Of a DNA stretch of 22,170 nt, positions 2,276-22,158 are shown in pieces (within the stretch, counting starts at the first letter, position 1; each line of letters opens with the position of its first letter). The notes beneath the pieces were generated by a model. It saw only the letters and a list, made by a program, of their open reading frames with translations, was not told the origin of the DNA and searched no databases. The DNA lies in the IMG/VR virus record IMGVR_UViG_3300010885_012827, positions 1-22,170 of that record, one strand, 5' to 3'. The position numbers and the translations under genes are program-made. The DNA is from a virus.

Positions 2276-2283
2276 GTAAGATA

Positions 2284-4285: not shown

Positions 4286-7200
4286 ATGAGTGCAATAGAT
4301 AGACAAAATAGATTATTAGTAGCGGAAGATTGGAAGAAAATTTATCAATCTTTTAGAAACGCAGACTTCCAAAGTTACGATTTTGAAAACCTTCGAAGAA
4401 CAATGATTGACTATATTCGTCAAAACTACCCAGAAGATTTTAACGATTATATTGAAAGTTCAGAGTACTTGGCACTTATCGATCTAATTGCATTTTTAGG
4501 ACAAAGTGTAGCGTTTAGAATTGATTTAAATGCTCGTGAAAATTTTTTAGAGTTAGCCGAACGACGTGACAGTGTGTTAAGATTGGCACGCCTTATTAGT
4601 TATAATGCAAAACGAAATGTTGCTGCACAAGGGTTGCTAAAATTTACAACTGTGCAAACTAGCCAAAGTGTAATTGATAGTACCGGACGAAACTTAGCCG
4701 GACAGGTCATTACATGGAATGATGCATCAAATTCAAATTGGTACGATCAGTTTATTAAAGTAATTAACGCTGCATTGCCTACATCACAACAATTTGGAAA
4801 TCCTGCAGACAAAGCATCTGTATACGGAATTCCGACAGAGCAATATCGATTTGACAGTGCAAATGCCGGGGTACCTGTTTATTCATTTTCAAAAACAATA
4901 TCAGGTAGAAGCACAACATTTGAAATAACAAGTTCATCGTTTAACGGCCAAGACTATATCTACGAAGAACCACCAAAAGCAGGAAATAAACTTGCCTGCA
5001 TTTTTAGAAATGACGGCCGTGGCTACAGTAGTGCAGCTACTGGTTTCTTTTTAAACTTTACTCAAGGAAATCTTAATACTGGGTCGTTTTCAATTTCACA
5101 ACCTAGCACTAATGAATCAGTTGACATTCAATCGCAAGGCATTAACAATAACGATGTTTGGTTATATCGATTAGACAAGAACAGTAGTGAAAGTGAATTG
5201 TGGACAAAAGTTCCTAGTTTTGAAGGTAACAACATTATCTACAATAGCTTAAACAAAAACATTAGAAATATATACGGTGTTACAACTCGTGCAGGTGATG
5301 CAGTTAGTTTAACATTCAGTGACGGCACATTTGGTAATTTACCGTTAGGTACTTTTAGAGTTTATTATAGAATTAGTAACGGATTAAATTATAAAATTAC
5401 ACCACAGGATATTCGCAATGTTTCAATTTCTATACCGTATAACTCGGCAACTAACCAACTTGAAACATTAACGGTTACTTTAGCATTGGCTACATCAGTA
5501 AGTAATGCTGATACTACAGAATCGAACACAAGTATTAAAGCAAATGCACCTGCAACATACTACACACAAAATAGAATGATTACAGGTGAAGATTATAATA
5601 TTAGTCCATTGGGCGTTAACCAGCAGATATTAAAAGTTAAAGCTGTAAACAGATCGTCAAGTGGCATTAGTCGATATTTCGATTTAGTTGATCCGACTGG
5701 CAAATATAGTTCTACAAATTTATTTGCAGATGACGGTGTCTTGTACACTGAAAGTTATCAAACATTTGTTAAATTTTCTTTTGCTAATAAGACTGACATT
5801 GAAGGTGTAATTTATAATACTGTAATTGATATTTTGAAAAAAACAGAATTAAGAAACTATTATTATTCAAAATTTATTAATTTAATAACTTTAAGTTTAA
5901 GTGTGTTTTGGACTGCAGTTACAACAGATACCTCGTCATCGTCTGGGTACATCAGCAATCTTTCTGATCTTCAAATTACTAAAGTTAGCTCATACACTTC
6001 TACTGATCTTAAATATTTTGCATCAGGTGCATTGATTAGATTTTCTGCACCTGATGGTAAATTTTTTAACACTGCTAGCAATAATGTACTTGTCGAAGGG
6101 ACAGGATCGGAACTTGGGTATGTGTCGTATCTATGGGCAGAAGTGGTTACGGTTGCTGCTGATGGCACTGCGTCAAATACTGGGATATTACCAACTGGCA
6201 TAGGTGCTATAACATTAAGTACTCCGATTCCGACTGGTGCAATAGCTAGCCAAATTATTCCAAAGTTTTCAACTTCGATTTCTCAACCTGTTATAGCAAC
6301 AATGATTGATTTGATATTTTTAAATAAACCGTTTGGATTACGATACAATGCAGTTGTTCAAGAATGGCAACTTATCTTTGAAGTTAATTTAAACAGCAAA
6401 GGCGTGTTTAATTTAGGAAAACAGGGCGACACTTCAAATACACAACAAGATTCAAGTTGGCTATTATTGTTTACAACTGACAACGAATTTTATAAAATAA
6501 CTAGTCGCGAAACACGTTTTATTTTTGAAAGTGATAAACAGATTAGATTTTATTTTGATAGCAGTAAAAAAATATACGATACTCGATCAAACTCGTTAAT
6601 TAAAGACGCTATTAAAATTTTAAATATTAACCCAGTTGCAGGCAGTACATTGCCGTTTACTGTAGATTATAAATGGGAAATCCAATCTGAATATGTTGGA
6701 TTAGATGGATATGTTGATAATAAAAAAATTATTGTGTCATATGCTGATAGCGACGACGACGGCATTGTTGATAATCCTGAATTATTTCTAACTATTGTAG
6801 ATCCTAACAATTCGACAATTCCTCTTAAAAATCGATATATTGTTGAAGAAAAGTATTCGATTTCGTTAGGACAAGATGATTTTAGATATATTGACAATTT
6901 CTATGAACTTGTTAAAATATATAATTCCGAATCTGAGTTAGATACATTGTTAGATTTTACAATTGGCCAGTATTTTTATTTTATAGAAACGGCAGTTGTG
7001 AAACAATTAACTGCTGCAAGAAAATTAGTACCATCGCTTGCGTACAAAGTATATCAAGGCAGGGGTAATCTTAAATTCCAATATATTCACAGTGCTGACT
7101 ATGAGTCTCGAATTGACCCTGGTACAAGTAATATAATCGATGTGTTTGTATTAACAAGAAATTATGACACTACGTTTAGGCAATGGCTTGCAGGTGCAGA

Positions 7201-7747
7201 CATTACTAAACCACTTGCTCCTGGAACTGATGAGTTATATAACACGTTAGCACCGTCTCTTAATTTAATTAAAGCAGTGTCTGATGAAGTTATATATCAT
7301 CCTGTGCAATACAAAGTCTTATTTGGCGCAACTGCTCCTTTAGAATTACAAGCGGTATTTAAAATTACAAAAACCTCTGGACAAGTTATATCAGATAATG
7401 ACATTAAATCTCAAGTTATAACTTCAATTAACGAATTTTTTGCCTTAGAAAATTGGGATTTTGGTGATACTTTTTATTTTACAGAACTGGCAACTTATGT
7501 TATGAATAAAACATCACCTAATATTTCAAATTTTTTAATTGTGCCACGTCAACCTAGTTTATCGTTTGGTAGTCTATTTGAAATTAAATCGACTAGCAAT
7601 CAAATTTTTATTAATGGAGCAACAGTAAGTGACATTGAAATTATTTCTGGCATTACTGCAAATCAAATTAAATCGGCAAATATTATTACTGCTGAAAATT
7701 CAGCAGAACAACAACTTATTACTAGTTCATCATATGGGAGTATCTAA
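4286..7747 (+). CDS. gp6: gp6-like baseplate wedge protein
   Basis: A 1153-residue relative of T4 gp6 (660 residues), the wedge protein that forms the inner ring of the baseplate. The N-terminus is characteristic: a helical stretch with DWKKIYQSFRNADFQSYDFE, then ENFLELAERRDSVLRLARLI and SYNAKRNVAAQGLLKF. The J-like core shows YYTQNRMITGEDYNISPLGV (residues 425-444), then KAVNRSSSGISRYFDLVDPT. A later segment has DSSWLLLFTTDNEFY and IRFYFDSSKKIYDTRSN, which I recognise as a marine T4-like version and which accounts for much of the added length. Residues 821-832 (DSDDDGIVDNPE) match a canonical EF-hand calcium loop. The C-terminal part (about 1010-1100) has the mixed alpha/beta look of the gp6/J dimerisation region. 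It has its own late promoter motif. Its stop codon shares one base with the start of the giant gene (TAATG), and a GGGAG ribosome site for that gene lies inside its last codons. Confidence 0.93.
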   Translation: MSAIDRQNRLLVAEDWKKIYQSFRNADFQSYDFENLRRTMIDYIRQNYPEDFNDYIESSEYLALIDLIAFLGQSVAFRIDLNARENFLELAERRDSVLRLARLISYNAKRNVAAQGLLKFTTVQTSQSVIDSTGRNLAGQVITWNDASNSNWYDQFIKVINAALPTSQQFGNPADKASVYGIPTEQYRFDSANAGVPVYSFSKTISGRSTTFEITSSSFNGQDYIYEEPPKAGNKLACIFRNDGRGYSSAATGFFLNFTQGNLNTGSFSISQPSTNESVDIQSQGINNNDVWLYRLDKNSSESELWTKVPSFEGNNIIYNSLNKNIRNIYGVTTRAGDAVSLTFSDGTFGNLPLGTFRVYYRISNGLNYKITPQDIRNVSISIPYNSATNQLETLTVTLALATSVSNADTTESNTSIKANAPATYYTQNRMITGEDYNISPLGVNQQILKVKAVNRSSSGISRYFDLVDPTGKYSSTNLFADDGVLYTESYQTFVKFSFANKTDIEGVIYNTVIDILKKTELRNYYYSKFINLITLSLSVFWTAVTTDTSSSSGYISNLSDLQITKVSSYTSTDLKYFASGALIRFSAPDGKFFNTASNNVLVEGTGSELGYVSYLWAEVVTVAADGTASNTGILPTGIGAITLSTPIPTGAIASQIIPKFSTSISQPVIATMIDLIFLNKPFGLRYNAVVQEWQLIFEVNLNSKGVFNLGKQGDTSNTQQDSSWLLLFTTDNEFYKITSRETRFIFESDKQIRFYFDSSKKIYDTRSNSLIKDAIKILNINPVAGSTLPFTVDYKWEIQSEYVGLDGYVDNKKIIVSYADSDDDGIVDNPELFLTIVDPNNSTIPLKNRYIVEEKYSISLGQDDFRYIDNFYELVKIYNSESELDTLLDFTIGQYFYFIETAVVKQLTAARKLVPSLAYKVYQGRGNLKFQYIHSADYESRIDPGTSNIIDVFVLTRNYDTTFRQWLAGADITKPLAPGTDELYNTLAPSLNLIKAVSDEVIYHPVQYKVLFGATAPLELQAVFKITKTSGQVISDNDIKSQVITSINEFFALENWDFGDTFYFTELATYVMNKTSPNISNFLIVPRQPSLSFGSLFEIKSTSNQIFINGATVSDIEIISGITANQIKSANIITAENSAEQQLITSSSYGSI
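6746..6781 (+). other. EF-hand-type calcium loop in gp6
   Basis: Residues 821-832 of gp6 read DSDDDGIVDNPE. Positions 1, 3, 5, 9 and 12 of the loop are Asp, Asp, Asp, Asp and Glu, position 6 is Gly and position 8 is Val. That is the full canonical pattern for calcium binding by EF-hand, dockerin or thrombospondin-type loops. The flanks are beta-strand-like (KKIIVSY before, LFLTIVD after) rather than helical, so a single loop in a beta domain is more likely than a true EF-hand pair. Confidence 0.6.
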
Positions 7748-7749
7748 TG
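7736..7749 (+). promoter_or_regulatory. Ribosome site and TAATG junction of gp6 and the giant gene
   Basis: GGGAG at 7736-7740 lies six bases before the ATG at 7747. The gp6 stop TAA (7745-7747) shares its last A with this ATG. The arrangement fixes the start of the giant gene and points to translational coupling. No promoter-like NATAAATA motif is seen just upstream, so the giant gene most likely depends on the gp6 promoter. Confidence 0.8.
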
Positions 7750-8211
7750 GCTGATAACACAAATCCAATCGCAAGTGACAACCTTTCTGCATCATTTCTA
7801 CCAAGATTTTATAGAACAGATGCAAATAAAAAGTTTTTACAAGCTACTGTTAATCAATTAGTACAACCAGGAACTGTACAAAAAGTTAGCGGATATGTTG
7901 GTCGCCAAAATGCTAAAGCAACAACTGCTGATGATGTTTTTGTTGCTGCAGCTGATTCTACTAGGCAGCACTATCAATTAGAACCGGGGTTCGCTGTTAA
8001 AGATTCGCTTAATAATACAACATTTTTTAAAGATTATCAAGATTATATTAATCAAATTAATGTGTTTGGCGGTAATGTTAGCAACCATGCCCGGTTGAAT
8101 AAACAAGAATTTTATAGTTGGGATCCTCATATTAATTGGGACAAGTTTGTAAATTTTCAAAATTACTATTGGTTACCAAACGGTCCTGCAGTTGTTAACG
8201 TGTATGGTAAT
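7747..8211 (+). other. Conserved N-terminal segment of the giant protein
   Basis: Residues 1-155. The stretch FLPRFYRTDANKKFLQA is followed by TVQKVSGYVGRQNAK, a mixed segment, and the aromatic-rich run FYSWDPHINWDKFVNFQNYY (122-141) ending in WLPNGP. I associate this start with large baseplate-linked proteins of marine T4-like phages. It probably anchors the protein in the baseplate, since the tail-proximal end is normally the conserved one (inference). Confidence 0.6.
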
Positions 8212-11200
8212 ATCCAAAAAGTTGAAAGTACATATACTGTAATTGTAGAAAGTGAAGGCGATAACAACGAATATTTGTTTACGCCGAACGGACTCTCAAG
8301 AAATCCAACATTGACATTGTATCGTGGCCAAACTTACAAGTTTGACATTACTAGTCCTGGTAATCCATTTAGTTTTAAAACCAAACGATCTACTGGATTT
8401 GCTGATAGATATCGTACTACTGCATTAGATTGGGCTGTTGAATTAGGTACTATTACGTTTACTGTTCCAAATACCTGCCCAGATGTATTATATTATGTTA
8501 GTGAAAATGATATACTTCTTGGTGGTGTTGTGCAAGTTTTAGATCTTAATGAAAATTCTTCGTTAGATATCAAAACAGAACTACTAGGTAAAAAAACTTA
8601 TAAATTAGCAGATGGCACATTATTAAGTAATGGTATGAAAGTTGCATTTGTTGGAAATGTTTCTCCTGCAACTTACGCAATTGGCAAATATTACGTTGAG
8701 GGAGTAGGTACTGCAATTTCATTAGTTAGTGAATCAGATTTAGAAATCTTAACTAATTATACTACACCTGAAACTATTTTATTTGATGCTAGCCCGTTTG
8801 ATGCAAAACCGTTTAGTGATGCAATTTCTTATGCAAGCATTTCTGATTATATTGTTATTAACCGTGCAAGCAAAGATAGGAATGCATGGTCGAGATATAA
8901 TCGATGGTTTCATAAAGATGTTATTGAAACTAGCGCATTGATTAACGAAATAACACCGACTATCGATCAGTCGGCACGGGCAGTTCGACCAATTATTGAA
9001 TTTGATAATGATCTTAAATTATTTAATTTCGGAACGCATGCAGTTACTGATATTGATTTAATTGATGATTTTACAACTGATGTGTTTTCAATCATCGAAG
9101 GATCGGCTGGATACAATGTCGACGGCATTAATCTTGCAGATGGCCACCGAATACTGTTTACTGCTGACACTGATAATCTTGTTAAGAATAATATATATCG
9201 TGTTGAAATTGTTAATTTATATACTAATAAAACTGACATTAACGGTGTACCGACAAGCAGTCAGATTCATCTAGTGTTAGATGAAATTGTTTCTAAAAAT
9301 CAAACAGCACTGATTCATTCAGGAATAAAAAATCAAGGGATATCGTATTGGTTTAACGGTGCAGACTGGAAAATAGGACAACAAAAGACAAAGTTAAATC
9401 AGCAGCCGTTGTTTGATATAGTTGATAACACCGGTATTAGTTTTGGTGATATTAGTAAATATGCAGGTTCGACGTTTTTAGGTACATCACTTTTTTCGTA
9501 TAAAACCGGTAGCGGATCAGTAGATAAGAATTTAGGTTTTGCATTATCATATAAAAATATCAACAATGTTGGCGATATTGTTTTTAATTTCTCATTGATG
9601 ACTGATAACTTTCAATACGAAGAAAATTCAAAAATTAATACTAAATTAACAAACGTAGGTTTTTTAGTTAAGACAAAATACAACAATTTACCGTCGTATG
9701 TTAACGGCTGGCAGATTTGCAATGTAACAAATACACAAGCTGCAGTGCGTGTTTACAAAAACGTAACAAATTTAAACAATTTTAAAATTGATCTATACGA
9801 CGATATTTCAATCCTTAGCGATTTAGTAGTGCGTGTATATGTTAACGGAATTCGATTAAACAACTCGGAATGGGCAATTAACACTGAATTAACTGATAAT
9901 ATTCCATATAGAAAAACAATTGTGCTAGATAATGATTTAGCAGCATCAGATGTATTATCTATTAAAACATTTTCTGCACAGCCGATTAACGAGAATGGAT
10001 ATTATGAAATTCCAGTCAACCTTCAAAGTAATCCGTTTAATAAATTAATTTCTGAATTTACGTTGGGCGAAGTAATTGACCATGTAACATCAATAGTTGA
10101 TAATTTAGATGGATTTAGTGGAACTTTTCCGGGAGCAAGTAATATTCGCGATCTTGGAAACATTTCTCAATATGGCACAAAGTTTGTTCAGCACAGTGGC
10201 CCGCTTGGTATATCGCTTTACCATATTACATCTAACACTAAAAATGTTATTAAAGCATTAGAACATGCTCGTGATCGATATAACGAATTTAAAAGAAATT
10301 TTGTTATTACTGCAACATCATTAGGAATCCACACTGATCCTATTTCGTTTGTTAATCAAATAATGAGAGAAATTAATAAGGATAAACCGAAAAATTCTTC
10401 GTTTTATTTTAGTGATATGGTTCCGTACAGTGCAAGTTTAAAAACATCATTTACAGTGTTAGATTATAGAATCCAAAGTTACTCGTTAGCAGAAGTGTTT
10501 AGTTTAACAGCGTTATCTAACAAAGCAGTCGGTGTGTACTTAAACGACGAACAACTGTTACACGGGAAAGACTACACCTTTGATAATCAAGGTTTTGTTA
10601 TTATTACTGCAACTAAACATAATGATGATATTATTACCATTTATGAATACGAAAGTACCGATGGTAATTTTGTTCCTGAAACACCGACTAAACTAGGTAT
10701 TTGGCCAAAGTACGAACCGAGTGTTTATTTAGATACAACATTAATAACACCTCGGTTAATGATTCAAGGACATGACGGTAGTCAGATACTTGCATATAAC
10801 GATTATCGAGATGGTTTAATATTAGAATTAGAAAAACGTATTTACAACAACATTAAAGTTACATACAATCCTGCAATTTTTGATATTGACGATGTAATTC
10901 CAAGTTATAATAGATCTAATGATTACAGTTTAACTGAATTTAATGATGTATTAGCACCAAATTTTTATAAATGGTTGTCGTATGTTGATCAAGATTTTAC
11001 AATGCCTCTGAATTTTGATAACCTTAATCCATTAACCTACAATTACCTTGGACAGTATACTTTAGATAATAGACTAGTACCTGGGTATTGGCGAGGAATT
11101 TATCGTTGGATGTTTGGCACTGATCGCCCAAATTTGTGTCCTTGGGAAATGTTAGGATTATCTGAAGAACCTTTATGGTGGGTAAATTTGTACGGCCCGG

Positions 11201-14200
11201 CACCTTATACTGCTGACAATCTAGTAATGTGGAATGATATCAGTAACGGTTTGTTAAAAGAGCCAGGTAAACCGGCAGTTAAACTTAAAAAATATGTAAG
11301 ACCATTTTTAATTGATCACATTCCGGTTGATAGTGATGGAAACATTGCTAGTCCGCAAATTTCAGGATTAACATTTGGTACAAATATGTATCAACAGGCA
11401 ACTAATTTTAAATTTGGAGATGTTAGTCCAGTTGAAAGTGCATGGCGTCGAAGCTCACATTTTCCGTTCAGTGTGCTTATTACTTCAATGCTGTTAACAC
11501 CTGCACATACAATCGGGGTACTACTTGATAGATCACGAATCGTTCGAGATTTGTCAGGTCAACTAATTTATAAAGAATCAGGCCTTAGAATTTCACCTGC
11601 AGATATTGTCTTACCGAGCAATGTGTTTGATACTTCTAGAGTGCAAACTGCAGGTATTATTAATTACATTGTTAACTATATTTTAAGTGATACATTAAGA
11701 TCTTTCACAGAATACCAATATGATCTTACAAACATATCTAGTCAAATTTGTTATAGAGTAGGCGCATTTACTAGTAAAGAAAAATTTAATTTATTACTTG
11801 ATTCGAAAAATCCAATATCTGCAGGAAGCGTGTTTGTCCCTCAAGAAGATTATGAAATAATTTTAAATACATCGTCTCCGATTAAAAAAATTAGTTATAG
11901 TGGTGTAATTATTACTAAAAATAATAACGGGTTTTCAATTAAAGGTTATAGTAAAACACAACCGTATTTTAAAGTATTTTCACCAATGGCCTCGGGCCAT
12001 TCTGTTACTGTTGGCGGAATTTCGGAAAGTTTCGTAGCATGGTCTGAATTTCATACATTTGCTAAAGACAAGATAGTGCAATTTAATAATAATTTTTATA
12101 GAGTTAAAGAAACTCATGATACAACCGATGTATTTGAAATAAAATATTATGCAAGACTTTCGGCACTTCCTGTAATCGGTGGTAAAACTGCGATATTTAG
12201 AACATTGTGGAATAAGAGAGACATTATTACCTACACATACGGTTCTATATTTTCTGATATTCAAGGAGTTGTTGATTTTTTAATTGGCCACGGTGAATAT
12301 TTAAAATCTCAGGGTTTTATATTTGATGAGTTTAATTCTGAATTAAATCGTGTAGCAAACTGGGAAACAAGTGCAAGGGAATTTTTGTTTTGGACAACAC
12401 AAAATTGGTCATCTAGCCAAACCAACTGGACTGAATGGGATCCGGGTCTACTAATAAAATTTAATTCAATTGTTCGATGGCACGGGGATTATTATAGAGC
12501 AATACGAATTGTTCAACCGTCGTCTGTATTTGATCCTGCATTTTTTGAAAAATTAGATGGGTTAAGTTTTGTAGGAAGTGCAGTATTGTCATTGAGCCCT
12601 GCTGCTGAAAAAATTACATTTAGCACGCAATTAAGTGTTGTTGACGATATAACAAATACATTTAATGATTATGAAATATGTGGAGTTGACGGCCGCCCGG
12701 TTCTGTTTAATTTCTTAAACTCATTTAGGGCCGATCAGTCGGTAACTTACACTCTTAAAGACGACTCTACGTTATACGGTGCAGCATTTTATCTTGTTCA
12801 AAAAGAACATGTGATTCTTATTAATAATACAACTATGTTTAACGATACTATTTTTAATCCTGAAAGTGGTTATAAACAAGATAGGTTAAAAGTTTCAGGG
12901 TATATTAGTACTAATTGGAACGGATCGTTAAACGTTCCGGGTTTTATTGTAGATCAAGCAGTTGTTCAACAATGGAATGCATGGACTGATTATGCACTCG
13001 GCGATGTTGTTAAGTACAAAGAATACTATTATAGTGCAGATTTGTCAATAGTAGGCGCTGAAAAATTTGATACTACCCAGTGGATTAAATTAGATGAAAA
13101 ACCAAAATCTGCATTAATTGCAAATTGGACATATAAAGCAAGCCAATTTGAAGATTTTTATAGTTTAGATGATGACACATTTGATTCAGCACAGCAAAAA
13201 ATGGCGCAACATTTAATCGGTTACCAAAAACGCCAATATCTAAATAATATTATTCAAGATGATGTTAGCGAATATAAATTTTACCAAGGTATGATTATTG
13301 AAAAAGGAACTCAAAATGTCTTTAATAAATTATTTGATGTTCTTAGTGCAGATAATCAAGAAAGTTTGGCATTTTTTGAAGAATGGGCAATTAGATTAGG
13401 CCAATATGGTGCAAATGCAGCATTTGAAAATATTGAAATCATACTTGACGAAAATAAGTTTATTATTAATCCACAAGGTTTTGAATTAGTTAATACTATT
13501 AATCCGGATGCTACTGATTTTATTGTTCGACAAACACCTTCGGATTTATATATTAAACCTGTAGGATATTCGTCATCGCCGTGGCCGGTTGTAAATTCTA
13601 CTCAATTTTTAAGATCGGCCGGCCATGTTAGGGCAGATGAAGTCCGATTAACGGTTAAAACTATTGCCGATATTGCTACTGCAGATATTAGTTCTTTTAT
13701 TGAAGGTGATTATATTTGGTGTACGTTTGAAGGGATAAGTTGGAATGTCTATAGATACACTAATCCAAAAATTAAAGTTAAAACCATTATGCAAACTGAT
13801 TCTACTATTGTACTTACAATTAATCGATCAATTAAGTTACTTGCGGGATCATATATTGGGATTAAACATTCATCAACATTAAACGGATTTTTTAAAGTAA
13901 TTTCGTCAACATTAAATACTATAACATTTAAAGTACCTGATACAGTTGTTGTCGAAGATCCAATTGATAGCCAGGCAGTTACTGTTCTATACACGTTTGT
14001 AAGTCGTAAAGCTAGCTCAATTAACACAGCAGATGCTATTTTACCTCGGCACCTTAAAAATGGTGAATTATTGTGGACTGATAACTCAGAGAATGAAAAA
14101 TGGGCAACTTGGAAATATAATACAGTTTATCAACAAGGGCAACTATTTAATCCAGACTCTTCATTTAATTTAGAATACGGTCGAAACATTGCAACAAATA

Positions 14201-17200
14201 AAGCCGGTGATATTATTGCAGTCTCAACTGCTACAGGATTTACATATATCTATGATAGAACTCATGCAACATTTGAATGGGTTTATAGACAACAGATTTT
14301 TAAACCGTTTATCTATCCTGACGATATTGATGGAAATAATATTAATTCTCAGATTGCAAATAACGTAGCAATGTCTACTGACGGTCGGTGGTTAGTAACT
14401 GGCTCACCGTTTGCATCTGCAGCATTTTCAAATTATGTAGGGGTGTTTAGTGAATTTACAATATACGCATTAGGTAACATTGTGTTGTACGATAACGAAC
14501 ATTATCAAGCAATTGCAACAACAGTTTCTGCTAAACAATATCCTGATTTGCATATTGATAAATGGAAAAAAGTTCCGTATATTCCGGTTGATTTGACAGC
14601 AACGACATCGTCGCTTTTAGAACAAGGTGTTATTTCGTTGTATGAAAAAGATTCAAATAACATTTATCAACTAGTTGATTCTATCGTAAGTCCACAGCCT
14701 GTAAATTTTGAACATTTTGGATCTAACATTGCGTTTGCAGGAAGTACATTATTAATACGAGCAACCGGGCAGGACGATAAAACAAAATTGTACAATCTTA
14801 CATATGGCACGTCGGTAATTGCATCTTCGTCATTTGATCCACAAGGTTCGGCTGATACTAAGATAGTATTAACTTCGATTGATAACATTAAAGTGGGCAT
14901 GGCAATTGTTGGTACAGGATTTGTTAACGGGCAAACTGTTGTTGAAATATTAGCTAATAATACAATTGAATTAAGTGCAGCACCGACTTTGGAGTTATCA
15001 GGGACTTACCGATTTACTAAAACAGAGTGGAAGTTTAATTTACAAAACACACTAACTGACGATACAAGTCAAAGCCAGTTCGGTGAAACTATTGTTTCAA
15101 CTGATAGCGGTAGTATGTTAGTGGTATCAGCACCAGATCCTGCAGGATCTGCAGGTAACGTTTACATATATGCAGCTAGTAATTTGGGATTTACATTGGT
15201 ACAAACACTAGGAACAACTGAAAATATAAGCCAATTCGGTACAGGTGTTTCGATTTCAAATACAGGAAATTATCTTGCAGTATCGGCAATGTACAATCAA
15301 GAGACAGAAATATTACCATCTGCTGGTACAGTTTTAATTTATAAAAGTAATGTTAATAGTGAGTTTGAATACTATCAAACATTAACTAACATTGCTCCTG
15401 AGGCCTTTCAGTCGTTTGGCAGTAAACTATATTTTACAAACGATGTTGACACATTGGTAGTGTACAGTGCAAATTCTGATAGTTATGACAATTTAACATT
15501 TGATTCTGATACAACTACATTTGATTTACAATCGACGTTAGTTAGAGATCTTAATGTTGATTGTGGCAGGGTTGATATCTATGATCGATACAACACTAGT
15601 TGGGTGTTTAGCGAAAGCATAACTACTCCTGCACAGATTAATGACGGATATGGGCAAGCAATTGCAGTTAACAACACTAGTGTATTAGTCGGAGCACCAT
15701 ACTCGACAAACATATACGAAAGAAGCGGAAAAGTGTATGAGTTTATAAATTTTTCAAAATTAAAAAGTTGGATTAAAATTCACGAAGAAAGTAAAAAACC
15801 GGATGTTTTTAAAATTAAACAAGCATTCTTATATAATAAACGAAATTTAGAATTGTTAACTTATTTAGATATACTTGATCCGATACAAGGTAAAAATCCT
15901 GGATCTGCAGATCAAGAAATCAAATATAAATTATTTTATGATCCTGCAATTTATTCAAATGGGACAGCAAGTAACGTAAACATTGACGAAAGCATTGCGT
16001 GGACAACTGCACAAGTTGATCAGCTGTGGTGGGATTTAACGACTGCAAAATTTATCGATAGTTATGATACTGATATTGTTTATAGAAATAATACTTGGTG
16101 TACGTTAGCAACCGGTGCATCTATTGACGTGTATGAATGGGTAGAATCAAAATATAAACCGTCCGATTGGGACTCGTTAACTGACACTGAAGAAGGACTT
16201 GCATTAGATATTAGCGGTACTACTCTGTACAGTGATTCTGCATATAGTGTTAAAACTCGTTTTGATACAATTAGTAAAACTAAAAAATATACTTATTATT
16301 ATTGGGTTAAAAACAAAAAAACAGTACCAGACAATAATAGCCGCCGCATTTCTGCATATGAAGTTGCGTCGTTGATTAGTAACCCACGAGGTAACGGTTA
16401 CAAATTTCTTGCGCTTACTGGCACGAATTCATTTAGTTTAATAAATGTTAAAGATTTATTAGATAATGATAATGTTGTGTTGTCTATTGAATATTGGACA
16501 GTTGATAAAATTGATCAAAATATTCACACAGAGTGGAAATTAATTAATTCAGGTTCGTCAACTTCTATTCCGGAAAAGATAGAACAAAAATGGATTGATA
16601 GTTTATGCGGTAAGGATTTAAATAATCGAGATGTGCCCGACACATTACTTCCGATTAAACTTCGATACGGTATAGAATCTAGACCTCGCCAGAGCATGTT
16701 TGTTAATCGGTTTGAGGCATTAAAACAATATATTGAACAAGTTAACCTTACACTAGGAAAAAATTTAATAGTCGACTCGTGTGATTTATCACCGCTTTAT
16801 TCATATGATGAAGCGCCTAATTTCATACATGGCAGATATGATGAAATTTTAAATACCTATGAAGAATTGCGATTTATATTGGTTAAATCGTTTAGACTAC
16901 CGTTAATTACACCAGTAATTACAGATGGGAAAATTACAGGTGTTACTATAGTTAACACCGGACGTGGCTATTTAGTTGCGCCAACTGTTGAAGTAGTAGG
17001 GTCAGGTATTAATGCAGTTGTTAGCACGACTATTAATGCAGCAGGTAGAATTATTAGTTGTGAGATTGTAAACAGCGGCGAAGGGTACAGCGACAACACT
17101 GCATTAATAGTCAGAAACTATTCAGTGTTACTGCTTAGTGATTCACAATCAAATAATGTGTGGAGTATATATTCATATCAACCTGAAACACTTAGTTGGT

Positions 17201-20200
17201 TAAAAGTTATTTCTCAAGCTTACGATGTTAGGAAATATTGGAATACAATTGATTGGTATGCAGCGGGGTATAATCAATTTAATCAGATAACTCACGTGGT
17301 CGATACCTATGCTGATTTAAATTCAGTTGTAGTATCAGTAGGCGAAACTGTTAAAATTCGTACAACAATTTCGGGTAATTGGGTATTATTAGAAAAATTT
17401 GCAAATGTTGATTCTATTAATTGGACACAGTCATATAAAGTTATCGGAAGTCAGAATGGCACTATACAGTTAAGTTCAATTCTGTATGAATATGTAAGCA
17501 CTGATATAGGATTCGATGGGATACGATTTGACGGCGGTATTTACGATAATAGTGCCGCAGTTGAACTTAGAATTATTTTAGATACAATTAAGAAAAATAT
17601 TCTAATCAATGAACTTACATCAGAATATTTAAATCTTTTCTTTGCAACGGTTCGATATGTATTAAGCGAACAGGCGTATGTTGATTGGATTTTTAAAACA
17701 AGTTTTGTAAAAGCAAATCACAACATTGGTAGTCTTCGCCAGTTAGTTACATATAAAAATGATAATCTTCAAAATTTTGAAGATTTTGTTTCAGAAGTTA
17801 AACCGTACAGAACTCAGATACGCGAATATGTAAGTGTATTTTCAAAAGTTGAAAATACCCAATCTGCAATTTCTGATTTTGATTTACCAGTAGTATACGA
17901 TCCGATATCAAAACAACTATCACCTATTGATACAAAAATGTTAGCAACTGGTGAAGTAGTTGCTGGCAACGACACTATAAACAAGTATCCTTGGAAATTT
18001 TGGTTAGATAATCTTGGGTTTTCGATTACATCGTTAGAAATAGTTGACTCAGGATCTGGGTATATTTTGCCACCGATTGTTTCTATTACGAGCCAGGTCG
18101 GTACAGGTGCAACTGCTCGAGCATTTATTACAAATGGAAAAGTTAGTCGTGTGGTGTTGTTAACTAAAGGCAAAGGATATCGATCTGCGCCAGTTGTTAC
18201 TCTAGATGGCGGTTTGAATATAGGTGGATTACCTGCTCGAGCAGTTGCAATCATAGGTGATAGTGTTATACGATCAAATCTAATTAAAATGAAGTTTGAT
18301 CGATTAACACCTACTTATTTTATTACACATCTTCAAGAAACTGAAACATTTGTTGGATCGGGATCACGTGCGCAATTTTCGTTGATTTGGGCACCTGATA
18401 TCCAGGTCGGAACATCGACGGTAACTGTTAATGGTTTATCGGTGTTAAAAGATTCTTATGTTTTAAAAATTATAAAGTCAACATCGCGTGGATTTACAAG
18501 TTATCAAGGTTCGTTGATATTTGATACAGCACCTGCAATTAGTTCGACAATTTCTATAACCTATTTAAAAAATTGGAATTTGTTAAATGCAGCAGATCGC
18601 GCTCATTTTTATTACAATCCGACAAGTGGCCAGTTAGGTAACGAGCCCACTCAACTTATGGCCGGAATTGATTATGGCGGTGTTATTATAAATGGTTTAG
18701 GGTTTGAGTTTAATCAAGGTTGGGACGGAACTCCATATTTTTCAGATAACTGGGACAGTGCTGATCAATTATCTGAAAACTATTCAGTTACTGTTGCTGC
18801 TGACACTTATGATGTAATACTTCCATATATTCCTGCACAAGGGACAAATTTAAATGTATATCACGTGCAATCAACAACAGAAACGTTTAATTCAAATGGG
18901 ACTGATTTAATTTATTACTTTAGTAACGCTGTAGAAACACCGACAGTGACAGTGGTTAAATCAACAGTATCACTTCCGAAAGTAGCAGCTACATCAAACG
19001 TTATAGGTGTAACTGCGCTATCTGTTAATACTACTGTTGGTATTGAAATAGGTGATATTGTTTCTAACGATAGTCAGTCATTTTGGACTACTAAGGTTAC
19101 ATTAACACAAACAAATAGTACTACTAACATTGTTGTTGTTACTAGTACTGAAAATATGTTACCTAATATGCCGTTATTATTTTCAGGAAAAGGTTTAGGC
19201 GGTATAGTTAGTGGTGTATATTATGTTAAGACTGTTGTTAGTTCGACTACTATAACAATTAGTTCAACTATCGGCGGTGCAATTTTTGATATTCAACCTG
19301 CTGATGATAATGCTAGTGTATCAATTGGTGTTATGGGAATTATATTTGGAACATTTAATTCAAATACAACAGTTGTGTCGATTGATAGTAACACTAGCAT
19401 AACATTGAGCCAAATGATTTATGCGGACATTGCAACCGACACTCCGATTAAATTTACACGAGTGTTAACTACATCAAACAACATCTTTATGATCAATGAT
19501 GGCCAAATTGAGTTAAATGTTCCGATAGCAGTAACAAGTGACATTATTATTTCTGGATATCGTCCTGCGGTTAGATTAGACGATCCTAATTATAATACTC
19601 CGTTACAAACAAATACCGATGCAATAATGCAAACCATAGTTTCATCTGGGACAACTGATATAGTTACTATACCAAATTCATTAACGGTTGTTAACGGTGA
19701 CAAATTTATTATACGCACAAGCACAAGTGACGGTTCTACTGATATTAAATTTGATGACTACGACACTGCGCTAAGTGGCGGAAATTTAACCTATACTACT
19801 GCATCTGGTCTTGCTGCTGAAGATATTGTAGTCGACGGTGACGGATTTGTTACTCCGATGACAAGTTTTGCGCCGGACGAAGTAGTACCTGGGCAGATAG
19901 TCGATTCAGTTGCAATTAAAGTGTTCGATAAAGCTAGAAACAGTTCTGCAAATATTAATATCGATACGTATATTGCAGATGGCACAACTACACAGTTTGA
20001 AATATCTCAGTTTGCTAATAGTACTGACGCTATTATTGTTAAACAATCAAATACAATAACTTCATCTGTAAAAACAGCTACAGCAGATTACATAGTTGAT
20101 TATAAAAATAAAATTATAGAATTTGTTGCACCGCCTACGGCAACTGATATTATTACGATAATAAGTTTTGGGTTTAGTGGTGAACACATTTTGGATATTA

Positions 20201-22110
20201 ATTATAAAGTTAGTGATGGCACCTCGCATGAATTTAATACAAATGCAACGTGGGAAACCCGTGTTTCTTCACTAGTGTATGTCAACGGTGAAGTAGTAAA
20301 TGCTGAATTGTTTAAGATACCAACATCGGGTATGATAGGTTTTAGATTAATAGATATTCCTGCAGCAGGTGATGTTATTAATTATGTAATAGTCGAAGGT
20401 ACTGAACAAACATTTTCAACAGTTAAAACTCAACGTATTCCTGCAACAGGTGTGGCAGAATACCCGTTGTCGAATACTGTTGGTAATTCACTTCCGGCTG
20501 AATCAAATATGATTGTTAAAATTGGTCAAAATATTTTAACTTCACCTAATAATTTATATTTTGAAATTAAAAATAATAAATTAACTTATTCGTTAGATAA
20601 GATTAAGATTCCGCCGTATTCGGTAAACATTGAATACTTATCGGTATTTGCAAACAGCATATTACTTGAAATAGGAAATGACTACACTGTTGATCTTAGT
20701 GGAGTTACTATTAAAATTAACAAAAATACATATTCTAAATTTGCAGGACAGACTTTAACTGTTTCGGTTACAGAGGATACTGGGTATGTTTATATTCCAG
20801 CAACGAGTGCAACAGTTGCAACAATTAGATTATCACAACTTTATAGTGCACCGTCAGTAATCGAAGTAACGACTTTTTATAAACATGATATACTAGATAT
20901 TCATCGATCAAATTTGACAGTTATTCCGCCTGCAACATTTACAGCCGATACGCTTGAATATTATATGTGTACTGATGTTACAACTGGTATAATTAGTTTA
21001 GACCGTGCAGTTATTGATGATCGATATGTTTGGGTTATTCATAACGGGCAACTATTAATTCCAAGCATCGATTTTAAACTCAACGACGATAGAGCCAGTG
21101 TTAGACTATTTAAATTACCGGAATTAACTGATAAAATATCGTTAATTACATTTAGCAGTAATGTTGACAGACCTGCAATTTCTTATATGCAGTTTAAAGA
21201 TATGTTAAACAGAACACATTTTAAACGTTTGAATCTTAATAAACAAACATGGCTTGTTAAAGAGTTATCATATAGAGATTTAACAATTACCGTTAGCGAT
21301 GCAAGTAAATTTGATCATCCTACAATTGCATTAAATAAACCTGGAATTATTGAAATTAACGGTGAAAGGATTGAATTTTTTACAATTACTGGCAATGTTT
21401 TAGGCCAGTTGCGCAGAGGGACATTAGGGACAGGCACTCCTAAAATTCATCCTGTTGGCGAAGTTGTTCAAGAAATTGGTGCAAGCGAGACTATTCCTTA
21501 TTCTGATAACATACTTGTTGAGCAACATATCTCGGACGGGTCTCACATTGTTAATTTGTCGTTTACTCCGGCAAAAGCTTTAGACACTTGGACCTACGAC
21601 TCAAATTTTGTTTCTTCAATTCCATTTAGTTACGGCCAAGCAAATGACATAGAAGTATTTGTAGGCGGCTATAGCAATTCTAAATGGGTTTCGGGTGTTA
21701 GCTATTCGATTGACGATGTAGTTATATTTGGAAGTTATTCGTATCGTTGCAGTGTTGCACATACTAGCGGACTGTTATTTAATGCTGATAAATTAAACTG
21801 GGCATTTTTTATCGGTAATATTCGGTTAAAGAAAGTTCCGTATTCTGTGCATAATGTTAATAACCATCCGGAAAGCCCAGAAGGCGATATCCAATTTGAT
21901 GCAGATTTTGCAGTTGATGGCAATCTAAAACAACTTAGATTAACAAATAAACTAGAAGTAGGTACAAGAATTACAGTAGTTAAACGGGTTGGAAAATCAT
22001 GGGACAGTACGATATCAGTATCGGATGACGAAAGCAGAATTGCTAACTTTATAAAAGCAGTTCCTGGATCGTGGTACACACATGGCGCTGTTAACACAAA
22101 TGTTAATTAA
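7747..22110 (+). CDS. Giant multidomain virion structural protein, in the gene 7 position
   Basis: A single frame of 4787 residues that follows gp6, where T4 has gp7 (1032 residues, the outer wedge protein). Stretches that I associate with large structural proteins of marine T4-like phages recur along it: FLPRFYRTDANKKFLQA (17-33) and FQNYYWLPNGP (137-147); NAWSRYNRWFHKDVI (379-393); PWEMLGL...WWVNLYGPAPYT (1132-1155); HLIGYQKRQYLNNIIQDDV (1822-1840) and KFYQGMIIEKGTQNV; YVDWIFKTSF (3311-3320) and EVKPYRTQIREY (3350-3361); LLNAADRAHFYYNP (3612-3625) and QLMAGIDYGG; NRTHFKRLNLN (4488-4498). Between these lie accessory modules listed separately. No signal peptide, membrane helix, long coiled coil or enzyme active site was recognised. 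The last 700-900 residues are almost all beta-strand. The likely role is a wedge or peripheral baseplate component with host- or surface-binding decorations (inference). A direct tie to T4 gp7 by sequence was not seen; position is the main argument. The frame is unbroken and composition is even throughout. Confidence 0.95.
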   Translation: MADNTNPIASDNLSASFLPRFYRTDANKKFLQATVNQLVQPGTVQKVSGYVGRQNAKATTADDVFVAAADSTRQHYQLEPGFAVKDSLNNTTFFKDYQDYINQINVFGGNVSNHARLNKQEFYSWDPHINWDKFVNFQNYYWLPNGPAVVNVYGNIQKVESTYTVIVESEGDNNEYLFTPNGLSRNPTLTLYRGQTYKFDITSPGNPFSFKTKRSTGFADRYRTTALDWAVELGTITFTVPNTCPDVLYYVSENDILLGGVVQVLDLNENSSLDIKTELLGKKTYKLADGTLLSNGMKVAFVGNVSPATYAIGKYYVEGVGTAISLVSESDLEILTNYTTPETILFDASPFDAKPFSDAISYASISDYIVINRASKDRNAWSRYNRWFHKDVIETSALINEITPTIDQSARAVRPIIEFDNDLKLFNFGTHAVTDIDLIDDFTTDVFSIIEGSAGYNVDGINLADGHRILFTADTDNLVKNNIYRVEIVNLYTNKTDINGVPTSSQIHLVLDEIVSKNQTALIHSGIKNQGISYWFNGADWKIGQQKTKLNQQPLFDIVDNTGISFGDISKYAGSTFLGTSLFSYKTGSGSVDKNLGFALSYKNINNVGDIVFNFSLMTDNFQYEENSKINTKLTNVGFLVKTKYNNLPSYVNGWQICNVTNTQAAVRVYKNVTNLNNFKIDLYDDISILSDLVVRVYVNGIRLNNSEWAINTELTDNIPYRKTIVLDNDLAASDVLSIKTFSAQPINENGYYEIPVNLQSNPFNKLISEFTLGEVIDHVTSIVDNLDGFSGTFPGASNIRDLGNISQYGTKFVQHSGPLGISLYHITSNTKNVIKALEHARDRYNEFKRNFVITATSLGIHTDPISFVNQIMREINKDKPKNSSFYFSDMVPYSASLKTSFTVLDYRIQSYSLAEVFSLTALSNKAVGVYLNDEQLLHGKDYTFDNQGFVIITATKHNDDIITIYEYESTDGNFVPETPTKLGIWPKYEPSVYLDTTLITPRLMIQGHDGSQILAYNDYRDGLILELEKRIYNNIKVTYNPAIFDIDDVIPSYNRSNDYSLTEFNDVLAPNFYKWLSYVDQDFTMPLNFDNLNPLTYNYLGQYTLDNRLVPGYWRGIYRWMFGTDRPNLCPWEMLGLSEEPLWWVNLYGPAPYTADNLVMWNDISNGLLKEPGKPAVKLKKYVRPFLIDHIPVDSDGNIASPQISGLTFGTNMYQQATNFKFGDVSPVESAWRRSSHFPFSVLITSMLLTPAHTIGVLLDRSRIVRDLSGQLIYKESGLRISPADIVLPSNVFDTSRVQTAGIINYIVNYILSDTLRSFTEYQYDLTNISSQICYRVGAFTSKEKFNLLLDSKNPISAGSVFVPQEDYEIILNTSSPIKKISYSGVIITKNNNGFSIKGYSKTQPYFKVFSPMASGHSVTVGGISESFVAWSEFHTFAKDKIVQFNNNFYRVKETHDTTDVFEIKYYARLSALPVIGGKTAIFRTLWNKRDIITYTYGSIFSDIQGVVDFLIGHGEYLKSQGFIFDEFNSELNRVANWETSAREFLFWTTQNWSSSQTNWTEWDPGLLIKFNSIVRWHGDYYRAIRIVQPSSVFDPAFFEKLDGLSFVGSAVLSLSPAAEKITFSTQLSVVDDITNTFNDYEICGVDGRPVLFNFLNSFRADQSVTYTLKDDSTLYGAAFYLVQKEHVILINNTTMFNDTIFNPESGYKQDRLKVSGYISTNWNGSLNVPGFIVDQAVVQQWNAWTDYALGDVVKYKEYYYSADLSIVGAEKFDTTQWIKLDEKPKSALIANWTYKASQFEDFYSLDDDTFDSAQQKMAQHLIGYQKRQYLNNIIQDDVSEYKFYQGMIIEKGTQNVFNKLFDVLSADNQESLAFFEEWAIRLGQYGANAAFENIEIILDENKFIINPQGFELVNTINPDATDFIVRQTPSDLYIKPVGYSSSPWPVVNSTQFLRSAGHVRADEVRLTVKTIADIATADISSFIEGDYIWCTFEGISWNVYRYTNPKIKVKTIMQTDSTIVLTINRSIKLLAGSYIGIKHSSTLNGFFKVISSTLNTITFKVPDTVVVEDPIDSQAVTVLYTFVSRKASSINTADAILPRHLKNGELLWTDNSENEKWATWKYNTVYQQGQLFNPDSSFNLEYGRNIATNKAGDIIAVSTATGFTYIYDRTHATFEWVYRQQIFKPFIYPDDIDGNNINSQIANNVAMSTDGRWLVTGSPFASAAFSNYVGVFSEFTIYALGNIVLYDNEHYQAIATTVSAKQYPDLHIDKWKKVPYIPVDLTATTSSLLEQGVISLYEKDSNNIYQLVDSIVSPQPVNFEHFGSNIAFAGSTLLIRATGQDDKTKLYNLTYGTSVIASSSFDPQGSADTKIVLTSIDNIKVGMAIVGTGFVNGQTVVEILANNTIELSAAPTLELSGTYRFTKTEWKFNLQNTLTDDTSQSQFGETIVSTDSGSMLVVSAPDPAGSAGNVYIYAASNLGFTLVQTLGTTENISQFGTGVSISNTGNYLAVSAMYNQETEILPSAGTVLIYKSNVNSEFEYYQTLTNIAPEAFQSFGSKLYFTNDVDTLVVYSANSDSYDNLTFDSDTTTFDLQSTLVRDLNVDCGRVDIYDRYNTSWVFSESITTPAQINDGYGQAIAVNNTSVLVGAPYSTNIYERSGKVYEFINFSKLKSWIKIHEESKKPDVFKIKQAFLYNKRNLELLTYLDILDPIQGKNPGSADQEIKYKLFYDPAIYSNGTASNVNIDESIAWTTAQVDQLWWDLTTAKFIDSYDTDIVYRNNTWCTLATGASIDVYEWVESKYKPSDWDSLTDTEEGLALDISGTTLYSDSAYSVKTRFDTISKTKKYTYYYWVKNKKTVPDNNSRRISAYEVASLISNPRGNGYKFLALTGTNSFSLINVKDLLDNDNVVLSIEYWTVDKIDQNIHTEWKLINSGSSTSIPEKIEQKWIDSLCGKDLNNRDVPDTLLPIKLRYGIESRPRQSMFVNRFEALKQYIEQVNLTLGKNLIVDSCDLSPLYSYDEAPNFIHGRYDEILNTYEELRFILVKSFRLPLITPVITDGKITGVTIVNTGRGYLVAPTVEVVGSGINAVVSTTINAAGRIISCEIVNSGEGYSDNTALIVRNYSVLLLSDSQSNNVWSIYSYQPETLSWLKVISQAYDVRKYWNTIDWYAAGYNQFNQITHVVDTYADLNSVVVSVGETVKIRTTISGNWVLLEKFANVDSINWTQSYKVIGSQNGTIQLSSILYEYVSTDIGFDGIRFDGGIYDNSAAVELRIILDTIKKNILINELTSEYLNLFFATVRYVLSEQAYVDWIFKTSFVKANHNIGSLRQLVTYKNDNLQNFEDFVSEVKPYRTQIREYVSVFSKVENTQSAISDFDLPVVYDPISKQLSPIDTKMLATGEVVAGNDTINKYPWKFWLDNLGFSITSLEIVDSGSGYILPPIVSITSQVGTGATARAFITNGKVSRVVLLTKGKGYRSAPVVTLDGGLNIGGLPARAVAIIGDSVIRSNLIKMKFDRLTPTYFITHLQETETFVGSGSRAQFSLIWAPDIQVGTSTVTVNGLSVLKDSYVLKIIKSTSRGFTSYQGSLIFDTAPAISSTISITYLKNWNLLNAADRAHFYYNPTSGQLGNEPTQLMAGIDYGGVIINGLGFEFNQGWDGTPYFSDNWDSADQLSENYSVTVAADTYDVILPYIPAQGTNLNVYHVQSTTETFNSNGTDLIYYFSNAVETPTVTVVKSTVSLPKVAATSNVIGVTALSVNTTVGIEIGDIVSNDSQSFWTTKVTLTQTNSTTNIVVVTSTENMLPNMPLLFSGKGLGGIVSGVYYVKTVVSSTTITISSTIGGAIFDIQPADDNASVSIGVMGIIFGTFNSNTTVVSIDSNTSITLSQMIYADIATDTPIKFTRVLTTSNNIFMINDGQIELNVPIAVTSDIIISGYRPAVRLDDPNYNTPLQTNTDAIMQTIVSSGTTDIVTIPNSLTVVNGDKFIIRTSTSDGSTDIKFDDYDTALSGGNLTYTTASGLAAEDIVVDGDGFVTPMTSFAPDEVVPGQIVDSVAIKVFDKARNSSANINIDTYIADGTTTQFEISQFANSTDAIIVKQSNTITSSVKTATADYIVDYKNKIIEFVAPPTATDIITIISFGFSGEHILDINYKVSDGTSHEFNTNATWETRVSSLVYVNGEVVNAELFKIPTSGMIGFRLIDIPAAGDVINYVIVEGTEQTFSTVKTQRIPATGVAEYPLSNTVGNSLPAESNMIVKIGQNILTSPNNLYFEIKNNKLTYSLDKIKIPPYSVNIEYLSVFANSILLEIGNDYTVDLSGVTIKINKNTYSKFAGQTLTVSVTEDTGYVYIPATSATVATIRLSQLYSAPSVIEVTTFYKHDILDIHRSNLTVIPPATFTADTLEYYMCTDVTTGIISLDRAVIDDRYVWVIHNGQLLIPSIDFKLNDDRASVRLFKLPELTDKISLITFSSNVDRPAISYMQFKDMLNRTHFKRLNLNKQTWLVKELSYRDLTITVSDASKFDHPTIALNKPGIIEINGERIEFFTITGNVLGQLRRGTLGTGTPKIHPVGEVVQEIGASETIPYSDNILVEQHISDGSHIVNLSFTPAKALDTWTYDSNFVSSIPFSYGQANDIEVFVGGYSNSKWVSGVSYSIDDVVIFGSYSYRCSVAHTSGLLFNADKLNWAFFIGNIRLKKVPYSVHNVNNHPESPEGDIQFDADFAVDGNLKQLRLTNKLEVGTRITVVKRVGKSWDSTISVSDDESRIANFIKAVPGSWYTHGAVNTNVN
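8302..8544 (+). other. Cupredoxin-like beta domain without copper ligands
   Basis: Residues 186-266. TLTLYRGQTYKFDI (188-201), NPFSFKT (206-212), ITFTVPN and VLYYVSENDILLGGVVQV (247-264) follow the strand plan of the cupredoxin/YHYH-like domain seen in other marine phage and bacterial proteins. The usual ligands are replaced: the first His (HPF) by Asn206, and Cys, His and Met of YYxCxxHxxMGG by Ser252, Asp255 and Leu258. A structural or binding role is therefore more likely than metal binding. Confidence 0.55.
12034..12162 (+). other. CBM5/12-like module 1 in the giant protein
   Basis: Residues about 1430-1472. WSEFHTFAKDKIVQFNNNFY has the chitin-binding type 3 (CBM5/12) plan: Trp, a strand, a Lys/Gly-Asp turn, V.F...FY, a variable loop, and a closing aromatic strand (IKYYARL). 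The closing Trp typical of the family is not clear, so this copy is a weaker match. Confidence 0.35.
12421..12558 (+). other. CBM5/12-like module 2 in the giant protein
   Basis: Residues about 1559-1604. TNWTEWDPGLLIKFNSIVRW (1559-1578) continues as HGDYYRAIRIV and FDPAFFEKLDG. The order Trp, strand, 'IV.W.G.YY.A', loop with D-P, and final hydrophobic-Lys-Leu fits the CBM5/12 plan, with Phe in place of the last Trp. It directly follows the run EFLFWTTQNW. Confidence 0.4.
12973..13104 (+). other. CBM5/12-like module 3 in the giant protein
   Basis: Residues 1743-1786. WNAWTDYALGDVVKYKEYYY (1743-1762) is a textbook CBM5/12 start: W, xxY, xxGDVV.Y, then YY.a. The end TTQWIKLDE supplies the closing Trp. 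This is the clearest copy of the five. In known proteins this fold binds chitin or other polysaccharides through exposed aromatic residues; the ligand here is unknown. Confidence 0.6.
13141..13416 (+). other. Helical conserved core of the giant protein
   Basis: Residues 1799-1890, the most clearly helical part of an otherwise beta-rich protein. It contains QQKMAQHLIGYQKRQYLNNI (1816-1835), YKFYQGMIIEKGTQNVFNKL, and SLAFFEEWAIRLGQYGA. I recognise this block as a recurring landmark of the equivalent proteins in marine T4-like phages. Its position between CBM-like module 3 and the propeller suggests a structural hinge or contact site (inference). Confidence 0.55.
14446..14580 (+). other. CBM5/12-like module 4, inserted in propeller blade 2
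   Basis: Residues about 2234-2278. FTIYALGNIVLYDNEHYQAI (2237-2256) and a closing DKWKKVPY have the same plan as module 3 (Y-ALG-(D/N)-(I/V)-V-x-Y, then HY.A, then W-K). It sits between the first strand pair of blade 2 (GRWLVTGSPFAS) and the strand that completes the blade (GVISLYEKD), so it is an insertion in a propeller loop. Confidence 0.55.
14848..15024 (+). other. Small beta domain inserted in propeller blade 3
   Basis: Residues about 2368-2426. The segment reads KIVLTSIDNIKVGMAIVGTG (2372-2391), then VVEILANNTIELSAAPTLEL. The plan 'I.VGM.I.G.G...G..VV.I..N.TI.LS' is a common small module of phage tail proteins and recurs near residues 3748-3906. It separates the first half of blade 3 (GSNIAFAGSTLLI) from its last strands. 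Confidence 0.5.
16927..17106 (+). repeat. GxGY repeat pair 1 in the giant protein
   Basis: Residues about 3061-3120. Two units of about 35-40 residues: GKITGVTIVNTGRGYLVAPT (3061-3080) and GRIISCEIVNSGEGYSDN (3100-3117). Each unit is 'G.I....I.N.G.GY..(A/P)P', a short beta-repeat widespread in structural proteins of T4-like phages. Function is unknown; the repeats probably form exposed beta hairpins. Confidence 0.6.
17632..17835 (+). other. Conserved RYVL...DWIFKTSF...EVKPY block of the giant protein
   Basis: Residues 3296-3363. RYVLSEQAYVDWIFKTSFVK (3303-3322), then a Lys/Asn-rich stretch, then FEDFVSEVKPYRTQIREYVS (3344-3363). I recognise this as a strongly conserved landmark in the large structural proteins of marine T4-like phages. 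No enzymatic motif is visible; it marks the third scaffold section, between the two GxGY repeat pairs. Confidence 0.55.
18022..18258 (+). repeat. GxGY repeat pair 2 in the giant protein
   Basis: Residues about 3426-3504. The units are SITSLEIVDSGSGYILPPIV (3426-3445) and GKVSRVVLLTKGKGYRSAPV (3464-3483), joined by a GTGATARAFITN linker and followed by a second PARAVAI strand. The pattern is the same as in the first pair, about 360 residues upstream, but the copies are diverged in sequence. Confidence 0.6.
18988..19464 (+). other. Nested beta domains in the giant protein
   Basis: Residues about 3748-3906. The outer domain has VTALSVNTTVGIEIGDIVSN at the front and TTVVSIDSNTSITLSQMIYA (3874-3893) at the back, matching the module inserted in propeller blade 3. 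Between them (about 3787-3861) lies a second module with NMPLLFSGKGLGGIVSGVYY (3807-3826) and VKTVVSSTTITISS. That inner plan ('F.G...GGI..G.YYV......T.TIS') is another repeat type common in marine phage fibres. Confidence 0.5.
21673..21804 (+). other. CBM5/12-like module 5, near the C-terminus
   Basis: Residues about 4643-4686. SKWVSGVSYSIDDVVIFGSY (4645-4664) continues as SYRCSVAHTSG and closes with LNWAFF. The plan W...SYS.DDVV.....YRC...H matches CBM5/12. It falls within what looks like one strand-turn-strand unit (DIEVFVGGYS before, IRLKKVPYSV after), so it appears to be a loop insertion. Confidence 0.55.
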
Positions 22111-22158
22111 ACTAGCAGATAATAGAACATGATAAATATACGATAAAGAGAGATCACT
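22111..22158 (+). promoter_or_regulatory. Late-promoter region after the giant gene
   Basis: GATAAATA at 22131-22138 fits NATAAATA and matches T4 TATAAATA in 7 of 8 positions. It lies 20 bases before the ATG at 22159, nearly the same spacing as the motif before gp6. The purine run AAAGAGAGA (22145-22153) is the ribosome site. No terminator hairpin was found between the giant gene stop and this motif. Confidence 0.6.

Follow-up and report, generated by a model that had tools for sequence, protein, structure and literature searches.

Gene order and late-promoter motifs around the giant reading frame

The window analysed here is an entire virus contig of 22,170 bases, and its recognisable genes all lie on the plus strand (Table 1). 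Profile matches give the order hub, gp5, gp25, gp6 and then a single giant gene, which bears out the upstream order. No lysozyme domain was detected in the gp5-like protein, which in this respect differs from the gp5 proteins of RaK2 and CBB as described in the literature.

Table 1. Features of the 22,170-base window; aa ranges refer to the giant protein
Feature	Position	Strand	Remarks
Baseplate-hub-like virion protein	2..2275	+	757 aa, 5' end open, phrog_11190
gp5-like hub/spike protein	2284..3795	+	503 aa; OB fold PF04717 and DUF2345-type region; phrog_13211
gp25-like wedge/sheath initiator	3792..4238	+	148 aa, PF04965
T4-type late-promoter-like AATAAATA	4260..4267	+	gp25-gp6 gap
gp6-like baseplate wedge protein	4286..7747	+	1153 aa, phrog_10646, E=1e-292
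Shine-Dalgarno-like GGGAG	7736..7740	+	6 nt 5' of giant ATG
Giant protein gene	7747..22110	+	4787 aa, 534 kDa, phrog_10938; TAATG overlap with gp6 stop
Optional cupredoxin-fold module, no copper ligands	8209..8580	+	aa 155-278; not in RaK2, CBB, Vibrio 2.275.O
Conserved block, PWEMLG...P.WW...YG motif	10747..11346	+	aa 1001-1200; near-invariant among aligned jumbo relatives
CBM5/12-like (chitin-binding type) domain	12973..13086	+	aa 1743-1780; within conserved frame; structural match
Most conserved block	13144..13446	+	aa 1800-1900; 77% mean identity, helical, GYQ.R.YL...FYQG.I..KGT...EEWA motif in jumbo relatives
Variable insert, FG-GAP beta-propeller repeats	13744..15816	+	aa 2000-2690; 124 to 1478 aa in relatives
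Second conserved block	15829..17706	+	aa 2695-3320; confident model, no PDB match
GxGY..PP.V module, copy 1	16894..17118	+	aa 3050-3124; common to P-SSM2 gp7
GxGY..PP.V module, copy 2	18022..18219	+	aa 3426-3491; overlaps phrog_460 match
Variable C-terminal region	18847..21246	+	aa 3701-4500; missing or replaced in many relatives
C-terminal CBM5/12 domain, PF02839	21685..21768	+	aa 4647-4674; Pfam match
T4-type late-promoter-like GATAAATA	22131..22138	+	gap between giant and next gene
phrog_11259 gene	starts 22159	+	~202 aa; next after giant

The initial annotation had described an unbroken frame of 4787 residues with a good ribosome site, filling about two thirds of the window and more than four times as long as T4 gp7, and its coordinates, size and setting are correct on each count. 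The frame opens with ATG, contains zero internal stops in 4787 codons, takes up 64.8% of the window and encodes a product 4.6 times the length of T4 gp7 (1032 aa). Its start codon overlaps the stop of the gp6 frame (TAA, 7745-7747). At this composition, a stop-free run of 4787 codons has a probability of ∼1e-168, and the frame is therefore not a chance event. As judged from codon substitutions against an 84%-identical relative (L006), the whole chain is under purifying selection, with dN/dS at ∼0.11 overall and between 0.08 and 0.14 in each block. That the long frame is an assembly artefact, or several genes fused, can be dismissed as virtually impossible: the single relative split into three ORFs aside, no support for it was found, and dozens of independent contigs and isolates share the length class, start and order, while the low dN/dS holds throughout. 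The split relative, L060 (4926-18530), is the sole one with a broken giant frame, and its ORFs of 1346, 1675 and 1303 aa may reflect either sequencing error or decay.

T4 late promoters have the heptamer ATAAATA as their core. It occurs at only two sites in the window (4261 and 22132), both of them intergenic, where 16 are expected. The same placement recurs in relatives: the motif lies 5' of gp6, in the gp25-gp6 gap, in 43 of 48, and 5' of the next conserved gene after the giant at 46 of 49 loci. At the level of this motif, the co-directional gp6 and giant genes seem to belong to a single late transcription unit. For CBB and GAP32, a late motif resembling that of T4 has been proposed to lie 5' of structural genes (PMC5259590).

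Within the giant genes, the late-promoter core is purged from both strands. Across 41 giant genes of relatives, synonymous-codon shuffling predicts 125 copies of ATAAATA and 176 of its reverse complement; 2 and 8 are observed. TATAAATA is absent from the same genes (0 observed, 52 expected), and TAAATAA and TTAAATA, which bear a partial likeness to the late motif, are also depleted. Several control 7-mers fall near expectation in this test. Gene order among the relatives is fixed apart from an insertion point between the giant and the ∼202-aa gene, where L008, L017, L034, L036, L040 and others carry optional ORFs of ∼300-1400 aa.

A family of jumbo-phage virion proteins

The giant protein matches phrog_10938, a PHROG of virion structural proteins, in five stretches (E=0, 1031 bits), and by this match it belongs to PHROG 10938, a catalogued and uncharacterised family of giant-phage particle proteins. 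A tblastn search with its first 1600 aa finds matches in 96 phage records, and pieces of the protein reach the PA5oct group, Atu_ph07, Phosso, SCTP-2, Vibrio 2.275.O, RaK2, CBB, GAP32, 121Q-like coliphages and others. Viral-contig matches number 224 with the single giant protein as query and at least 598 when the query is an alignment of the family over its first 1200 residues, and environmental contigs carrying relatives extend up to 400 kb. Isolate relatives encode giants of ∼3,300-4,600 aa (Atu_ph07 4449, PA5oct 3857, SCTP-2 3807, RaK2 3326), and those at environmental loci range from 3883 to 5929 aa. UniProt-derived structure sets contain the family as uncharacterised proteins, among them an entry of 63% identity, A0A6J5L0K2.

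RaK2 gp465 (ORF070w), CBB_236, phAPEC6 gp245, PA5oct gp355 and Atu_ph07 gp180, all members of PHROG 10938, have the same blocks and slot as the protein described here and are likewise of giant length (3,323-4,449 aa). The present protein is longer, and carries an FG-GAP insert and a cupredoxin module that RaK2 and CBB lack. It is, then, a longer member of a known uncharacterised family that is already represented in PHROGs, in annotated jumbo phages and in UniProt-derived sets; the present analysis contributes a map of the blocks, a propeller site that varies among relatives, a cupredoxin devoid of copper ligands and the distribution of the late-promoter motif.

Comparison of adjacency across genomes bears out the proposed position after gp6. 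The giant lies directly 3' of gp6 in seven of eight isolate genomes (RaK2, CBB, phAPEC6, PA5oct, Atu_ph07, Phosso and Vibrio phage 2.275.O), and directly 3' of a gp6-sized ORF, usually overlapping it, at 58 of 59 testable environmental loci, the 59th being L060 with its broken frame. One relative has its homologue in an unrelated position: in SCTP-2 a distance of ∼90 kb separates the giant gene from gp6, which is on the opposite strand, and the giant is still beside a phrog_11259 gene.

Three relatives of the giant are virion proteins, according to published work and database records. CBB_236, which follows gp6 in CBB, was found in CBB virions by mass spectrometry with 21 peptides and 7.7% coverage (PMC5259590). 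phAPEC6 gp245 (381.9 kDa), encoded directly after the baseplate wedge protein gp244, was found in virions with 17 unique peptides (PMC7247149), and the record of PA5oct gp355 carries an ESI-MS/MS mark. The mass spectrometry of CBB, phAPEC6 and PA5oct places these relatives in the virion and not specifically in the baseplate.

Conserved frame and exchangeable modules

An alignment of 41 environmental giants with the isolate proteins yields a block map in which conserved blocks at ∼aa 1-2000, 2700-3000, 3200-3700 and 4500-4600 are separated by variable stretches; together they make up a conserved frame (∼aa 1-2000, 2700-3700 and 4500-4600). The core blocks are mostly 20-48% identical, with few gaps, across distant jumbo phages. 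Conserved blocks interspersed with optional modules had been noticed in the initial annotation, and the alignment now quantifies them; the marine T4-like setting in which they were placed does not hold in its narrow sense, as the true relatives are jumbo phages of the RaK2, PA5oct and Atu_ph07 groups, and what the giant has in common with marine T4-like cyanophages is limited to small modules.

Near the N-terminus, the model of aa 155-278 resembles cupredoxins such as rusticyanin and AcoP (Foldseek against the PDB, probability 1.00). None of the four expected copper-ligand positions is conserved among 96 sequences, and the module is therefore a copper-less member of the cupredoxin fold. Cyanophage tail fibres and gp9-type proteins contain this fold as well, and so do beta-sandwich proteins encoded on Pithovirus and Marseillevirus contigs. 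Fold matches to CueO and laccases are due to this single cupredoxin-like domain, and with the ligand positions not conserved no oxidase is claimed.

The insert at aa 2000-2690 varies in length, from CBB at the short extreme to L077 at the long one. Because FG-GAP repeats are present here and the FG-GAP Pfam family is matched at the same site in 8 of 20 relatives scanned, the repeats mark this stretch as most likely a beta-propeller site. A third CBM5/12-like stretch lies at aa 2234-2265, in addition to the two domains of Table 1. Beside its giant, SCTP-2 encodes a second one of 3096 aa (gene 141; L004 4615-13905) that matches phrog_8401, a beta-propeller repeat protein, hinting that propeller modules may also exist as separate adjoining genes. 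A match to the head-closure family phrog_460 at aa 3391-3545 is explained by the common GxGY..PP.V module and not by a neck function.

Relation to gp7 and a proposed place in the baseplate wedge

In the conserved wedge, a third chain sits with two gp6-type chains (PMC10457771). The giant shares with T4 gp7 the slot after gp6, and with gpI/TssG-type chains (for example XM1 gp17, 242 aa) the expected functional position. We consider it most probable, with a likelihood of about two in three, that the jumbo-phage protein of this slot is a late-made 534-kDa chain that serves as a baseplate strut beside gp6 and carries exchangeable binding modules. The initial annotation had proposed a wedge protein that absorbed fibre or adhesin functions. 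The gp6 slot, the presence of relatives in virions, and the CBM5/12, FG-GAP propeller and cupredoxin-fold modules agree with that proposal, but the wedge fold itself was not found: by profile and by Foldseek, no examined segment matches a baseplate wedge fold.

A stronger version of this reading, the two not being mutually exclusive, holds that the giant is a true T4 gp7 orthologue that grew by domain accretion and still packs with two gp6 chains into the core bundle, its sequence having drifted past detection. We regard orthology as possible, though the odds are somewhat against it. Besides the slot, it is favoured by the lack of another detectable gp7 in these genomes. The T4 gp7 model phrog_964 finds no match in the giant, in eight jumbo isolates or in two contigs, yet it does detect the gp7 proteins of T4 and K566 and the 5195-aa gp7 of P-SSM2, so that no other gp7 candidate is visible in the jumbo genomes. 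Two candidates for a separate gp7 were rejected. The ∼202-aa phrog_11259 protein has an all-beta look from its sequence and matches neither gp7 nor the other T4 wedge proteins, and the SCTP-2 gene after gp6 matches tail sheath and sheath stabiliser families instead. No gp8 homologue was recognised 3' of the giant in relatives.

The gp7 of the marine cyanophage P-SSM2 (PSSM2_111) offers a parallel that also speaks for orthology, being likewise a giant single chain directly after gp6 and annotated gp7. Towards its N-terminus a T4 gp7 core can still be detected (aa 199-298 align to T4 gp7 727-813 at Prob 91.5 with our profile method), whereas the giant family shows none, and the two frames cannot be aligned. 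What they share are the GxGY..PP.V modules only (Prob 96 over 74 columns); phrog_2885, the marine cyanophage giant gp7, does not match the giant. T4 gp7 has been reported absent from cyano- and pelagimyophages, where it is seemingly replaced by VrlC (PMC7029224), so the question of gp7 identity extends to further T4-like groups. Our literature search found no high-resolution baseplate paper for this jumbo-phage group.

Against orthology stand the direct comparisons. When a family of 48 giants was aligned by hhalign with a family of 22 T4-type gp7 proteins, the best score was Prob 0.2. The accepted gp6 homology, run as a control, was the top match in the right place and reached Prob 16 only, and the profile method is therefore too weak to exclude gp7. 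Over the whole giant, profile-profile comparison found no match to the T4 gp6, gp7 or gp8 families, nor to single T4 sequences of gp10, gp9, gp11, gp12 and gp53, and 450-aa windows of the giant aligned to T4 and P-SSM2 gp7 through the GxGY modules only. The gpI/TssG family PF09684 is matched neither by the giant nor elsewhere in 13 records; T4 and P-SSM2 are also blank, hence this is a weak test.

AlphaFold2 models were obtained for residues 12-640 (mean pLDDT 82) and for the counterpart of 1725-3320 in the short-insert relative L070 (mean pLDDT 74), together covering about half of the protein. For these two partial models, no gp7, gpI or TssG chain is among the 50 Foldseek matches listed for each against the PDB; the listed matches are cupredoxins and chitin-binding domains, together with a few baseplate or fibre entries of phages that match over a small domain. 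The lack of detectable wedge homology, by profile and by fold in the modelled parts, counts against the favoured strut reading as well as against orthology; the remote SCTP-2 gene also counts against the former. Residues 1-150 and 1800-1890 combine strong conservation and some helical content with low model confidence, which would be in keeping with chains that need a partner such as gp6 to fold. The block at 1800-1900, helical and of low confidence when modelled alone, as expected of a partner-dependent chain, has an FYQG...KGT stretch that by eye recalls gp7 and the P-SSM2 protein; the resemblance, at aa 1840-1870, was not confirmed by profile alignment.

The absence of a wedge-fold match and the many binding modules could instead mean that the slot was taken over by a giant protein of adhesin or fibre type, with the third wedge chain encoded elsewhere or dispensed with in favour of a gp6 of 1153 aa in place of 660. 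The SCTP-2 gene, away from gp6 but still adjoining the ∼200-aa phrog_11259 gene, fits such a history. However, outside SCTP-2 the giant almost always adjoins gp6, mostly with an overlap, and distant jumbo phages share its frame to a degree unusual for adhesins; we find this origin rather doubtful. It is also unlikely, and slightly more speculative, that the giant is a non-orthologous gp7 replacement, an unrelated strut of so far unseen fold in which the role of the third chain is fused with exchangeable host-binding modules, so that a single 0.5-MDa chain, repeated around the baseplate, is both wedge and adhesin.

For the baseplate strut with exchangeable modules that we favour, the course of events may be envisaged as follows. 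Late in infection the giant and gp6 would be made from one transcript, and translation of the giant is probably coupled to that of gp6. The single 534-kDa chain would be incorporated into the tail baseplate, where its conserved frame may assemble next to gp6 in each wedge, giving six copies, one per wedge. There the frame would act as a strut, taking the part played in T4 by gp7 together with the peripheral wedge proteins. The variable sites would display their modules outward, namely the cupredoxin fold, CBM5/12, the FG-GAP propeller and the variable C-terminal region, and these probably contact the cell surface, such as envelope carbohydrate, or fibres.

The family is widespread, and its members, among the largest of jumbo-phage proteins, are annotated merely as virion structural or hypothetical proteins. 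The block map indicates which parts of the giant merit structure determination and which inserts merit comparison. If the frame is the gp7 equivalent, the widely conserved gp25-(gp6)2-gp7 wedge would, in a major group of phages, have a third chain of a very different kind, and modules of host range would plug directly into the wedge.
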